Source: an uncultured Bacteroidales bacterium (lineage in GTDB: Bacteria > Bacteroidota > Bacteroidia > Bacteroidales > Bacteroidaceae). Taken from it: a stretch of DNA of 39,463 nucleotides. Each line of letters begins with the position of its first letter. The first letter of the stretch is position 1. Under the pieces are notes generated by a model. It had not been told where the DNA came from, did not search any database, and worked only from the letters and a program-made list of their open reading frames with translations. Below, piece after piece: positions 27,267-34,122 of the stretch. The translations under genes and the position numbers were made by a program. The stretch is taken from contig CACYCZ010000104.1 of assembly GCA_902773055.1 (NCBI GenBank), forward strand, positions 1 through 39,463, given 5' to 3'.

Positions 27267-28112
27267 TCAGCGCATTTTGGTAAGGGTAAGTTGCATCTTA
27301 CCGACATTTATGCCATTCTTTCCTGAATGCAGGATAGGAGTGGGGATGCCTTTTTTGTTTTTGAGATATAAAGGTTCCTTCAGTACGGTATGGCTGTGCC
27401 CGCCCAAAATGAGATCAATGCCAGATGTATTTGCAACGAGATAGTTGTCGTTCAATGAGGACAGGGTGTTGATGCCGAGATGAGACAGACAGATGACAAG
27501 GTCACATTTTTTATCCTCTCTCAGAATCTTTACCATATTCTGTGCTGCAATGGCGGGGTCAATAAATTTTATATTCTTGCATTTCTCGGCTTGAACAAGG
27601 CCTTCAAGCTGAGCACCGAGGCCAAATAATCCAATCTTCAGACCATAACGCCGGATGATGGTATAAGGCTTGACACAGCGTTCAAGTGGTGTACCTGTGG
27701 TAATGTAGTTGGCGCAGATTACAGGACATTTCAGCTTTTTGAATATGCGTGCCATATTGTCCAATCCGAAATCAAACTCGTGATTACCGATGGTGACAGC
27801 ATCATATCTCAAGCGATTTATCATGTCCACCTCAACATCGCCCTTGAACATATTATAAAAAGGAGTGCCTTGGCAGAAATCTCCGCAGTCAAAGACTAAT
27901 GTCTGTGGGTCTTTGGTGCGCTCAGCCTGGATGATGTTTGCCCGGCGAACAACGCCTCCCCGGTTTGCGTTTTTGTCTTTGGAAACTGCCGGAACAGGTT
28001 CGATCCTGCTGTGAGTGTCACTGGTCTGAAGAATGTTGACTACGATATCGCGTGCGGATGTCGGCAATATAAATCCGCAGATGATGATAATATATAACAG
28101 ATGTCTTTTCAT
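27267..28112 (-). CDS. Metallophosphatase half of a split 5'-nucleotidase
   Basis: The 281-residue protein has a signal peptide (YIIIICGFILPTSA, about 1-20) and the N-terminal calcineurin-like domain of the 5'-nucleotidase/2',3'-cyclic phosphodiesterase family: ILQTSDTHSRIEP (metal ligands Asp and His), VFDCGDFCQGTPF, AVTIGNHEFDFG (Asn-His-Glu) and LILGGHSHT. The C-terminal substrate domain is absent and encoded by the gene upstream. It is probably periplasmic and would free nucleosides from nucleotides. Its ATG overlaps the TGA of the C-domain gene (ATGA), so translation is coupled. Confidence 0.92.
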   Translation of the reverse strand: MKRHLLYIIIICGFILPTSARDIVVNILQTSDTHSRIEPVPAVSKDKNANRGGVVRRANIIQAERTKDPQTLVFDCGDFCQGTPFYNMFKGDVEVDMINRLRYDAVTIGNHEFDFGLDNMARIFKKLKCPVICANYITTGTPLERCVKPYTIIRRYGLKIGLFGLGAQLEGLVQAEKCKNIKFIDPAIAAQNMVKILREDKKCDLVICLSHLGINTLSSLNDNYLVANTSGIDLILGGHSHTVLKEPLYLKNKKGIPTPILHSGKNGINVGKMQLTLTKMR

Positions 28113-28882
28113 TGCTCAACTAATTTAATCCTGCCGTCACACCGGCCATCTATTTTTTTACCTTCTTTTGTCTGTTGTTTGACATAGTTCATGAACATAT
28201 CGCGCAGGAGCCCGGCAGGCAGATCCTGGCGTTTGATAGACTTTTTGAATGAAGGCATGCCGTCATTCCCTTCAGCCAGATAGTCGATAGTGCCAATGGT
28301 ATATTCCTTATCTGGTTCTATGGGCTTTCCTTGTACGGAGCAGTTTGTCAGCTTGCCGTTGCGTGTAATTTGAAGTGAGGCACCACTGATACCCTCTCCA
28401 CCTCTGTGCGCAATTTCTTCAAAAAGGTGCAGGAGGTCTGCTCCTTTTAAAGTCAGTACTATTATAGTGTTTTCAAAAGGAAAAATCTCGTAGATATTAC
28501 CAACGGTGATAGTGCCCTTCGACAAGGATGTCCTAAGTCCTCCCATGTTCATTACAGCTAAATCGGCGGGCCTCCCGAGAAACTGAGAAGCGGTTTCTCT
28601 AAGAAAGTCGGCAGCCAAGTTAGACAATGGACTTTCAGGTTGGAAAGTTTTCAATGTCGTCGCAGATTCCCCAATGGGTTGGTTCATGATATTTTCAATC
28701 TGCGACTTGTACGAAAGGATTGCAGCAGAAACTGATTGGTTACCTCGGGTGTCCCATGTAGAATCAACGGGAATCAAGTATCCTTGCGATTCCGTGAGCT
28801 TAAAGTGAGCATGGGAACATGAAAAAAGCATTGCTGCGTATGTTACAGAAATGCTCAGAAATAAAATATGTCGTTTTGTCAT
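28109..28882 (-). CDS. Lipoprotein carrying the C-terminal domain of 5'-nucleotidase
   Basis: The 257-residue lipoprotein precursor has a hydrophobic N-terminus with a lipobox at MLFSCSH (about residue 22). The rest is a 5'-nucleotidase C-terminal domain: VMNMGGLRTSLSKGTITVG, NIYEIFPFENTIIVLTLKG and TIDYLAEGNDGMPSF, the last being the nucleotide-stacking region in the full-length enzyme. In one-gene family members this domain follows the phosphatase domain; here it is a separate gene placed before it. I infer that the two products assemble on the periplasmic face of a membrane. A promoter box lies at 28900-28907, shared with the divergent permease region. Confidence 0.9.
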   Translation of the reverse strand: MTKRHILFLSISVTYAAMLFSCSHAHFKLTESQGYLIPVDSTWDTRGNQSVSAAILSYKSQIENIMNQPIGESATTLKTFQPESPLSNLAADFLRETASQFLGRPADLAVMNMGGLRTSLSKGTITVGNIYEIFPFENTIIVLTLKGADLLHLFEEIAHRGGEGISGASLQITRNGKLTNCSVQGKPIEPDKEYTIGTIDYLAEGNDGMPSFKKSIKRQDLPAGLLRDMFMNYVKQQTKEGKKIDGRCDGRIKLVEQ

Positions 28883-30220: not shown

Positions 30221-30250
30221 TTTTTTTTGAACTTGAAAATTGTAACAAAA

Positions 30251-30799
30251 ATGGTTGATACCAATCAAGAATTTAAACAAGTTATGGATATATGCCGTGA
30301 CTTGTTCCAAAAGAAGTTGCATGATTATGGCGCAGCTTGGCGTATTTTAAGAATTCCGTCAGTGACTGACCAGATTTTTATTAAGGCTAAGCGCATACGT
30401 TCGATAAATGAAAAAGGAGAAGCTCGGATTAATGAAGGTAGTGTGTCTGAGTTTATAGGAATTGTAAACTATGGTCTTATTGGCTTGATACAGTTGGAAC
30501 TCAAACCTACGATAGAAGCAGACATCTCAGAAGAAACAGCATTGGCGATGTATGATAAATATGCTAAGGAGACTTATGAACTCATGATGAAAAAAAATCA
30601 TGATTATGATGAGGCTTGGCGCAATATGAGAGTCAGTTCATATACAGATTTGATTTTGATGAAGATTTATCGTACAAAGCAGATAGAAGAGTTGCATGGT
30701 AAGACTTTGGTGTCTGAAGGAATAGCAGCCAACTATCAGGATATGATTAATTATTCTGTTTTTGCCTTGATAAAACTCGAAATTGAAAAAGAGCAGTAA
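30251..30799 (+). CDS. DUF1599 / nucleotide-modification-associated domain 1 protein with two repeats
   Basis: The 182-residue soluble protein contains two copies of the same module: [20 protein letters not shown] at about 25-45 with [17 protein letters not shown], and [20 protein letters not shown] at about 115-135 with [16 protein letters not shown]. This is PF07659 (DUF1599, also named Nmad1), suspected to act in nucleotide metabolism because related domains occur in phage modification loci; its reaction is unknown to me. The ATG at 30251 is chosen over the upstream TTG at 30227. It begins a run of same-strand genes with the DoxX-TIM gene, SPOR gene and folE. Confidence 0.88.
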
Positions 30800-30833
30800 C
30801 GTTAAATGTGGATTAAGTCAGGTGAGTCATTGG

Positions 30834-32816
30834 ATGATTCGCCTGTCGTTGTCTTTTATCTTTCTGCTGTCGGGAGTATTGAAGGCGATAGATCCTAAAG
30901 GGACGTCTTACAAGATTGCAGAATACCTTAACGCTTTTCAATTTCATCAAATTGCACAAAAAGAGAATTTGGTATGGATATCAAGTATTTTTTTGTGCAT
31001 TGTTGAGTTTGTTTTGGGAGTATATATCCTTCTGGGAATTCGTCGTAGATTCGCATCATTATTCAATTGCTTTCTTGCTGTAGCATTTGCTCTGCTTTCA
31101 TTGTATGTATGGATGTCTGATGCAGTCAGCGATTGCGGCTGTTTTGGTGACGCGATCGTTTTGACAAATGCCCAAACTTTTATAAAAGCTATTGTCCTGT
31201 TGGTTCTGTCGGTGCTGTATCGGTTCTCCTGGCATAAAACAGACAGCCTGTTACTGGAAAATATGCATTGGATAGTGTCATTATATTCAATATGCTTTAT
31301 TGCCGTGCTGGGCATTATGTCAAGCCGATATCTTCCGATGATAGATTTTCGGCCGTATAAAATAGGTGTTAATATTTCCCAGGCAATGGAGATTCCTCCT
31401 AATGCTGATTTGCCGGTATACGAAAATTATTTCATATTAAGTAAAAATGGAAAACAGCAGAGGTTTACTCTGAATAACTATCCTGATAGTACATGGGAAT
31501 TTGTCCGTTCAGAAAATAAACTTGTCAAGCCGGGCTATGAGCCGTTAATCAAAGATTTTTATGTGACAGATACTCTCGGGAATGATGTGACCCACAGCCT
31601 CCTGAATATAGAGCAATATCTCTTCCTCTTGGTTTTTCCCCATATGGAAAAGTCTGAAGATGCATATATTGATGAAATAAATAATGTTGTGGATTATTGT
31701 CAGCAGCATGGGTATATGTTTGCTGCACTGACGGCTGCATCGAAAAAAAGTATAGATGAATGGCAGCATTATAGCGGAGCTGATTATCCAGTCTTCACTT
31801 GTGATGAAACGTTGCTGAAGACCATGATACGTTCCAATCCGGGGCTCATGTTGTTGAAAAAGGGGACAATTCTGGCAAAATGGAGCAGTAATAACCTGCC
31901 GGCTGTTAATGAAAATACCAATATGACCGCTTTGCAGCAGGATGCGGACCTTTCAATGTTTCAATTTCTGAAAATAATTTTATACTATGTTATTCCACTA
32001 TTATTTATTACCTTTGTAACAAATTTGGTAAGATCCTATAAAATCAACTTAAATAAAAATAAGATGAGAAAGAAAATCGTAGCAGGTAACTGGAAAATGA
32101 ATAAAAACCTGCAGGAGGGTATAGCCCTTGCAAAAGAACTCACAGAAGTTGTTAAAAATCCTAATTGCGGTGTTGTAATTTGCACTCCGTTTATCCATTT
32201 AGCGAGTGTTGCAGACGTAATAAAAGGCTCTGCTATTGAACTTGGAGCAGAGAATTGCGCAGATAAGGCTTCTGGCGCTTATACCGGTGAGGTTTCTGCA
32301 GAAATGGTTAAATCAACAGGTGCGCAGTATGTTATTTTGGGGCACTCTGAGCGTCGTCAGTACTATAACGAGACTCCGGAGATTCTAAAAGAAAAAGTGC
32401 AATTGGCTTTGGCAAATGGTCTGAAGGTTATCTTCTGTATTGGTGAAACCTTGGAAGAACGTGAGGCTAACAAGCAGAATGAAGTCGTAAAGGCTGAATT
32501 GGCAGGCTCTGTTTATAATCTGAGTGCAGAGGAATTTAAGAATATCGTTATTGCCTATGAACCTATATGGGCAATTGGTACAGGCAAGACAGCGACAGCA
32601 GAGCAGGCAGAAGAAATTCATGCATATATACGTTCTACTATTGCTGAGGTATATGGACAGGCTGTTGCCGATGAAACTACTATTCTTTATGGTGGTTCTT
32701 GTAAGGCCAGCAATGCTCCCGAACTGTTCGCCAAACCTGATATCGACGGCGGCCTCATTGGTGGTGCTTCTTTGAAGGCTCCCGATTTCAAGGGTATTAT
32801 TGACGCTTGGAATTAA
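30834..32816 (+). CDS. tpiA: DoxX-like membrane protein with thioredoxin-like domain fused in frame to triosephosphate isomerase
   Basis: One uninterrupted frame encodes about 660 residues. Residues 1-200 hold five membrane helices of the DoxX/MauE type with the CxCFG motif (SDCGCFGDA) between helices 3 and 4. A soluble thioredoxin-like domain (about 200-370, without an active-site CxxC but with [15 protein letters not shown]) follows, then a sixth helix ([17 protein letters not shown]). From residue 411 a complete 250-residue triosephosphate isomerase follows ([32 protein letters not shown]), with Lys, His and Glu catalytic residues intact. The linker [13 protein letters not shown] contains no stop. 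Six helices would leave the isomerase in the cytosol, where glycolysis occurs. The N-terminus is unsure: TTG 30783, GTG 30822 or ATG 30834. Normally these are two adjacent genes. Confidence 0.85.
32064..32816 (+). CDS. tpiA: Triosephosphate isomerase, possible internal start within the fusion
   Basis: The internal ATG at 32064 is in the fusion frame and starts [13 protein letters not shown], which is exactly where standalone TpiA begins; 250 residues is a normal length. It is preceded by an A-rich stretch (AACTTAAATAAAAATAAG) like other start regions here. A free soluble enzyme could therefore be made from the same gene, separately from or alongside the fusion. I cannot decide between the two from sequence alone. 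Confidence 0.55.
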
Positions 32817-32911: not shown

Positions 32912-33532
32912 ATGAAAAGGGTATTAAGTATAGTGTTTATCCTGTTGTTTGCTAATCTGTATTCAATTGCTCAGACTTTTACAGAGAAGGTAACGGCAGT
33001 TAGGCCTGGTGAGGGAAGTGTGATTTTTTATCAGGAACCCTACTTGGAGGCAATGCTTAATGGAACGGAGTATCCTCCCAAACAATTACCCAAGCCAAAA
33101 ATACCGGTATCGGCAGAAAAGAAAAACGTTCCTCCCAAGAAAAAGGATAGCGTATCAGAAACTGCAGATAGTCCAGTGCAGGATATATCCAAGAATGTGT
33201 TGACGATTACAGACAAGTCTAATATTTCATCGGATCAGTACAAAAAGAAGATATATAAGAATAGTACTACTGTTAACGGCTATCGTATTCAGTTATATTC
33301 GGGCTCTAATTCCAGAGAGTCAAGACAGAAGGCTTATTCTGTGGGATATTTATTCAAGTCAAATTATCTGAACATACCGGTATATACTCATTTTGTGTCT
33401 CCTCGTTGGACCTGCTGCGTAGGGAATTTTAAGACCTATGCCGATGCTCAGGCTTTTCTTTCGGAAATCAAGGCGTCCGGGCAGTTTAACGGTGCGATGA
33501 TTGTTAAGTCAAAAATTCAGGTTGTTGAGTGA
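32912..33532 (+). CDS. SPOR-domain secreted protein
   Basis: The 206-residue protein has a signal peptide (about 1-20, ending YSIAQ), a Pro/Lys-rich linker ([20 protein letters not shown], about 53-72) and a C-terminal SPOR domain (about 122-203: [39 protein letters not shown]). SPOR domains bind peptidoglycan, so it is probably a periplasmic envelope protein. Its stop at 33530-33532 lies five bases before the folE ATG, so the genes are probably co-transcribed. Two Cys residues in WTCCVG stand next to each other, which is unusual for the domain but otherwise unremarkable. Confidence 0.88.
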
Positions 33533-33537
33533 AAACT

Positions 33538-34122
33538 ATGCAAGAGCAGGATTTTGAAAAGAGCGAGAATTATGATGCTCTGACAGAATTGTATCGGAAA
33601 GAGCTGGAGTTGATAGGTGAAAACCCTTATCGGGAAGGCCTCCTGAAGACGCCGTCTCGTGTGGCGAAGTCAATGTTATATCTTACAAGTGGCTACAATA
33701 TGGACCCGTTAGCTGTATTGCAGTCTGCCAAATTCAATGAGGATTATAAGCAAATGGTTATTGTGAAGAATATTGACTTTTTCTCCATGTGTGAGCATCA
33801 TATGTTGCCTTTTTATGGAAAAGCCCACGTGGCATATATTCCTAACGGCTATATTACGGGTTTGAGCAAGATAGCGCGCGTTGTGGATATTTTTGCCAGA
33901 CGTCTGCAAGTCCAGGAGCGAATGACAACTCAGATTAAGGAATGCATTCAAGAAGCTTTGAATCCCCTTGGTGTTATGGTGGTATTGGAAGCGCGCCACA
34001 TGTGTATGCAGATGCGGGGAGTTGAAAAACAGAATTCGGTTACTACAACCAGTGATTTCACGGGTGCCTTCAATAGTTCTAAGACCCGGGCTGAATTTTT
34101 GAATTTGATAGGGAGGGAATAA
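33538..34122 (+). CDS. folE: GTP cyclohydrolase I
   Basis: FolE converts GTP to dihydroneopterin triphosphate, the first step of folate synthesis, in the cytoplasm as a homodecamer. The 194-residue product contains the family motifs [34 protein letters not shown] (zinc Cys and His), [20 protein letters not shown] and [12 protein letters not shown] (second zinc Cys). The ATG at 33538 is preferred over the GTG at 33529, which would overlap the SPOR gene. Length is normal, and the call is firm. Confidence 0.96.

Follow-up and report, generated by a model that had tools for sequence, protein, structure and literature searches.

The window, a stretch of 39,463 nucleotides from an uncultured Bacteroidales bacterium, contains an open reading frame (30783..32816, forward strand) in which a DoxX/MauE membrane protein of the BT_3928 family runs without a stop codon into a triosephosphate isomerase (TIM), as defined by the open frame and profile matches. 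Judging from this frame and its many relatives, we consider it probable that one gene gives rise to two proteins, namely a membrane-anchored DoxX-TIM and a free TIM translated from an internal start.

The fused frame and its domains

Counted from TTG 30783, the fused frame encodes 677 residues and translates with zero internal stops. Three candidate starts were recognized, TTG 30783, GTG 30822 and ATG 30834; the last, which the original prediction had taken as the start, is one of the three, and TTG 30783 or GTG 30822 is also possible. GTG 30822 and ATG 30834 are each absent from one of the two nearest relatives. TTG 30783 is kept in both and overlaps the upstream gene for a DUF1599 protein (30227..30799, forward strand, identified by profile) by 17 nt, but the same stretch also encodes this gene. 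Where the membrane protein begins within positions 30783-30833 is therefore best regarded as uncertain.

According to the profiles, the first 427 residues of the fused protein form the BT_3928-family part, with MauE/DoxX helices in front. Residues 17-373 match NF045576 (BT_3928_fam) with 428.6 bits (cut-off 250; model positions 3-358 of 358), while Pfam MauE and DoxX match residues 16-146 (61.6 bits) and 18-102 (27.5 bits), respectively. Averaged over 15 aligned proteins, the hydropathy shows five helices followed by a domain of about 206 residues, then a further, sixth helix and finally a short linker of basic character. In the window, the five predicted helices that resemble DoxX/MauE occupy 30834..31343 (forward strand; Pfam, hydropathy and invariant columns), the sixth predicted helix (residues 394-412, from hydropathy) occupies 31962..32018 and the linker 32019..32063, both on the forward strand. 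A DCGCFGD loop at residues 117-123 is conserved, as seen from invariant alignment columns. The positive-inside pattern suggests that the N terminus and TIM are cytosolic and that the domain of about 206 residues lies outside, and this predicted topology agrees with the placement of the isomerase on the cytosolic side in the original prediction.

The predicted external (periplasmic) domain (31344..31961, forward strand) was assigned a thioredoxin/ResA-like fold with AlphaFold and Foldseek. Modelled alone, it reached a pLDDT of 86.4, and its best Foldseek matches were the thiol-disulfide oxidoreductase 4nmu and ResA (E ~4e-6, TM-score by target ~0.6); Pfam AhpC-TSA scored 14.6 bits on it, under the cut-off of 26. 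It had been described before as a thioredoxin-like redox domain. The fold was borne out, and the label “redox domain” is unproven, given that no invariant cysteine was found among 10 aligned external domains. The window protein has no CxxC between residues 188 and 393, and the conserved cysteine pair sits in an inter-helix loop, outside the thioredoxin-fold domain.

The TIM part (32064..32816, forward strand) is complete and begins at an internal ATG, as supported by profiles, invariant residues and structure search. Residues 431-675 match PF00121 with 315.6 bits (cut-off 20.1; positions 1-244 of 245), TIGR00419 matches the same part with 209.3 bits (cut-off 130.6), and the structure search returned B. 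thetaiotaomicron TIM 7rpn at 74% identity. The catalytic residues of TIM are the Asn and Lys in GNWKM, the His in GHSERR and the Glu in YEPxWAIGTG, and N436, K438, H521 and E593 of the window protein are invariant in alignments of 9 and of 15 proteins. By its sequence, the window TIM should thus be catalytically intact, with activity predicted. No second TIM match was found in the draft genome to which it belongs (95% complete, 153 contigs). Between the last predicted helix and the TIM Met lie 15 residues (413-427), and the full-length structure model (pLDDT 80.3, pTM 0.55) drops below a pLDDT of 50 at junction residues 420-428.

Distribution and turnover of the junction

The fusion proved to be real, with no stop in frame and with the same frame open in relatives, including single-contig genomes. 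Two relatives (G014 and G001, 76% and 73% identical) are open over the same length. Homologs with the same fused architecture were searched for in related genomes and found: after each DoxX frame was read to its stop, the 313 classified loci comprised 134 fused, 43 with an out-of-frame overlap and 136 separate, shares which are not population estimates, since sampling was uneven and directed to where long frames had already turned up (genus codes g1, g6, g15 and g22 are represented by nearly all of their listed full-length matches, other genera by a part). These loci came from 80 named ones, minus 20 without a DoxX match and L093 with a masked junction, and from 256 unnamed ones, minus L189 (no usable TIM) and L005 (duplicate of L041); 306 of the 313 differ over 1,200 nt. 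One locus, L015, was an overlap by rule and was relabelled fused, its junction being open and its stop lying 113 codons into TIM.

The fused state is spread over several genera: 65 of 119 loci in g6, partly from single-contig genomes, 25 of 51 in g15, 12 of 17 in g22, and 12 of 13 in the window's own genus g1 (a count that takes in the window and the relabelled L015; the remaining locus is separate). No fused locus occurred among the 10 of g19, the 8 of g14 or the 4 of g21. In the own-genus search, 15 of 19 genomes had a match and full-length open frames recurred; in the family search, 240 of 251 genomes had a TIM match, and at least 42 open frames of at least 550 aa surrounded TIM among the 150 family matches listed, one frame being interrupted by an internal TAG. 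The named fused genomes include those of Hoylesella pleuritidis JCM 14110 and of Prevotella lacticifex. Outside the family but within the order, only 2 of 115 matched genomes (G438 and G523; completeness >=90) were fused as judged by frame length, which suggests that the DoxX-TIM fusion is rare there. That the two are adjacent genes in other Bacteroidetes, as the original prediction had it, is true of most classified relatives outside the lineage, and in Phocaeicola vulgatus ATCC 8482 the DoxX gene and tpiA are separate, 30 nt apart. Among the unnamed loci, all 255 that have a usable TIM (one genome entered twice) also have a DoxX match upstream of it; of the 80 named loci, a set reaching further out taxonomically, 20 yielded none.

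Several observations were made on single loci. In L015 (G004:C12), an in-frame TAG stands about 113 codons into that draft genome's only TIM match and is likely an assembly error or a strain variant. L085 (JAMPEL010000003.1), titled Roseburia sp., matches L346 of G046, a genome of the window's family, without a single difference in 1,200 nt, and the Roseburia title is probably wrong. Five fused loci of the own genus (L009, L010, L011, L013 and L014) carry long low-complexity linkers rich in Asn, Ser and Asp, with 153-171 nt from the last-helix Pro to the TIM ATG, compared with 69 nt in the window. Elsewhere in the window, on the reverse strand (27267-28112 and 28109-28882), a phosphoesterase domain and a 5′-nucleotidase C-terminal domain are encoded by two adjacent genes with a 4-nt overlap, the gene for the C-terminal domain coming first.

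ATGA-type overlapping genes show translational coupling, and the out-of-frame relatives with a 4-nt overlap share this arrangement. In six loci of g17 and g29 (L038, L040, L042, L345, L346 and L085), the DoxX tail is long and variable and the two genes overlap by 4 nt at an ATGA, an alternative to fusion. Unlike in ATGA coupling, the fused state involves no termination, so that a free TIM would need true internal initiation.

The history of the junction was followed on a single FastTree tree built from both proteins. The four-way junction state changed at least 75 times on this tree. For fused versus not fused, 52 changes were counted compared with a mean of 101 with shuffled labels, which indicates that the fusion is labile but inherited. 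Sampled reconstructions gave on average 26 fused-to-separate and 15 separate-to-fused changes, together with 15 fused-to-overlap and 2 overlap-to-fused ones; with about 41 mean losses, there is no strong need for the fusion. Even L300 and L301, which are 0.016 apart on the tree, are set apart by a stop codon in the tail. The original picture of a single stop codon lost in one genome thus had to be abandoned, for the boundary opens and closes repeatedly across the family.

The internal start and selection on the fused frame

Given that TIM follows the membrane protein without a stop, we examined whether its ATG retains the features of a translation start. ATG is present at the TIM start in 134 of 134 fused loci; this conservation alone is weak evidence, since the residue that follows, Arg2, is conserved almost as strictly (132 of 134). 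In Flavobacterium johnsoniae, A at -3, -6, -12 and -13 are positive initiation determinants according to the excerpt of the published study (PMC6847099). At these positions, A occurs with frequencies of 0.82, 0.95, 0.78 and 0.82 in 129 fused loci, and of 0.77, 0.74, 0.78 and 0.74 in 136 separate ones. All four positions are A in the window, and an exception is g22, where A at -3 occurs in 0.58 of 12 fused loci. Since both the ATG and the A preference are kept as in separate loci, the linker is best read as the old tpiA leader, now translated, which bears out the earlier view of it as a former intergenic space; in the window it doubles as the tpiA translation-initiation region. The kept context also makes internal initiation the natural expectation, and ATG 32064 is well placed to start free enzyme, just as had been proposed.

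A promoter within the fused gene was considered as another source of free TIM. TAnnTTTG is a -7-type promoter motif that is paired with a -33 element, and it was scanned for within 150 nt of the TIM ATG. It was found in 11 of 134 fused loci (5.3 expected), 20 of 136 separate loci (7.4 expected) and 3 of 43 overlapping loci (2.5 expected), and together with a -33 element in 2, 2 and 0 loci (0.6, 1.2 and 0.1 expected). In the window, a single -7-like site lies at -55. The excess is about twofold but the frequency is low, and an internal tpiA promoter was rejected as a general source, with single loci possible.

In the mechanism that we propose, a tight gene pair would lose its DoxX stop and become fused. 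Ribosomes starting at the DoxX start would then read through to yield the 677-residue membrane protein, whose TIM would be suspended in the cytosol from a flexible linker of positive charge, while ribosomes starting at ATG 32064 in its kept A-rich context would yield TIM in its usual soluble form, the probable source of most of the glycolytic activity. The boundary itself, as the comparison of loci suggests, would flip among fused, overlapping and separate states.

The strongest competing reading, possible though clearly less probable, is a neutral and leaky boundary: the genes are close, the junction is A-rich, the DoxX stop drifts, and the TIM tail would be useless, with free TIM doing all the work. 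The frequent state changes, the 43 of 313 loci that overlap out of frame and the near pair L300/L301 are all consistent with drift, and so are the indels in fused linkers, of which, without duplicates, 23 are in frame and 20 shifted, compared with 9 and 11 in separate-separate pairs (p=0.36). With duplicates, at 24/17 against 8/14 in the control, the counts were suggestive of frame-keeping (p=0.078), and against a plain one-third expectation the 23 of 43 gave p=0.005. A general four-parameter frame test (p=0.07) likewise leaves room for neutrality. However, a one-parameter likelihood test for the fused frame, chosen after seeing the data, gave p=0.0054, and the other two frames gave p=0.037 (disfavoured) and p=0.80.

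The share of fused loci among those that read through also speaks against neutrality, being above the frame-blind expectation. Among 172 non-duplicate read-through loci, 131 are fused and the other 41 lie out of frame, and of 2,000 runs simulated with frame-blind rates, 0.55% came to a fused share this high (any frame, 1.3%). Since the simulated runs had on average 72 read-through tips compared with 172 observed, the subset of 490 runs in which no fewer than 100 tips read through provides the fairer figure, with 1.6% reaching the fused share and 4.5% reaching it in any frame.

Fused linkers (30 nt, 39 pairs) showed 51, 68 and 95 changes at codon positions 1, 2 and 3, a third-position excess that neutrality does not predict (p=0.0008 compared with an expectation of one third; p=0.041 for the third versus the second position), with the position-1 changes partly held down because A is kept at -3, -6 and -12. 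Separate leaders (18 nt, 48 pairs), with 123, 132 and 122 changes, had no such excess.

Neighbouring junctions served as controls. The genes for a SPOR-domain protein (32912..33532) and for GTP cyclohydrolase I, FolE (33529..34122), both downstream on the forward strand and identified by profile, were fused in 0 of 151 loci, though 49 of these 151 junctions overlap or nearly so; DoxX-TIM was fused in 69 of the same 151. The DUF1599-DoxX and TIM-SPOR junctions were fused in 0 of 57 and 0 of 52 loci, within a locus set in which 15 of 60 DoxX-TIM junctions were fused (L093 counted in). As none of the control junctions was fused, a general fusion tendency of the operon was rejected. We conclude that the fused frame is moderately favoured over the other frames (p ~0.005-0.016) and is dispensable.

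Adaptive tethering, by which TIM would be held at the inner membrane near the DoxX protein or a transporter, or the amount of TIM would be coupled to that of the membrane protein, seems improbable as an account of the fusion. The predicted topology puts a cytosolic TIM behind a membrane helix, the fused frame is favoured, and TIM works with an N-terminal partner in the PGK-TIM of Thermotoga, as described in the excerpt of PMC7729029; against tethering, the fusion has been lost many times, even between close relatives, and no other glycolytic enzymes were found among the same-strand neighbours examined. An assembly or sequencing error that deleted a stop codon, conceivable in a genome of 153 contigs, is extremely unlikely given that the same frame is open in relatives at 73-76% identity and that the single-contig genomes G023, G160, G295 and G237 are fused (L273, L271, L282 and L296). 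Equally far-fetched is a TIM made solely as the fusion, an obligate membrane enzyme, which the single TIM match and the lack of a stop between the two parts would allow, but against which it speaks that the internal ATG retains an initiation context like that of separate genes.

Relation to known systems and biological meaning

Fusions of TIM as such are already known. In the available excerpt on Thermotoga (PMC7729029), PGK is also made alone besides PGK-TIM (NF010569), and this system resembles the one proposed here in that TIM is joined at its N terminus and one partner is also made alone. It differs in that the partner there is a soluble glycolytic enzyme and here a membrane protein, and in that the protein predicted to be made alone is TIM here, not its partner. 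The bifunctional PGK/TIM model NF010569 scored 309.1 of 883 bits on the window protein, below its cut-off, and covered the TIM part only. Eukaryote TPI-GAPDH fusions likewise join TIM to another protein but, going by the excerpt of PMC3527533, have mitochondrial targeting signals, the next glycolytic enzyme as partner and an unrelated origin. Unlike the usual BT_3928-family gene (NF045576), which stands separate before tpiA in Phocaeicola vulgatus, the window copy has no stop of its own; the NCBI type of this model, equivalog_domain, would fit a BT_3928 domain occurring inside longer proteins. No published DoxX-TIM fusion was found in a literature search of open-licence PMC titles and abstract starts, nor did the open-licence PMC literature yield a membrane partner for TIM together with boundary toggling within one bacterial family.

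In a sizeable Prevotella-type group, then, a central glycolytic gene, single in the genome studied here, has lost its own boundary yet kept its own start. A bolder reading, which we regard as rather doubtful, is that many Prevotella-type bacteria make soluble and tethered TIM from one frame, with the boundary acting as an evolutionary switch flipped both ways and the tethered form being preferred wherever the switch is on. The gene pair occurs in fused, overlapping and separate versions, which provides a natural, often repeated comparison in which a role of TIM tethering or of internal initiation could be tested in existing species pairs. For the annotation of such genomes, a “TIM” of about 680 residues probably has a second, shorter product.
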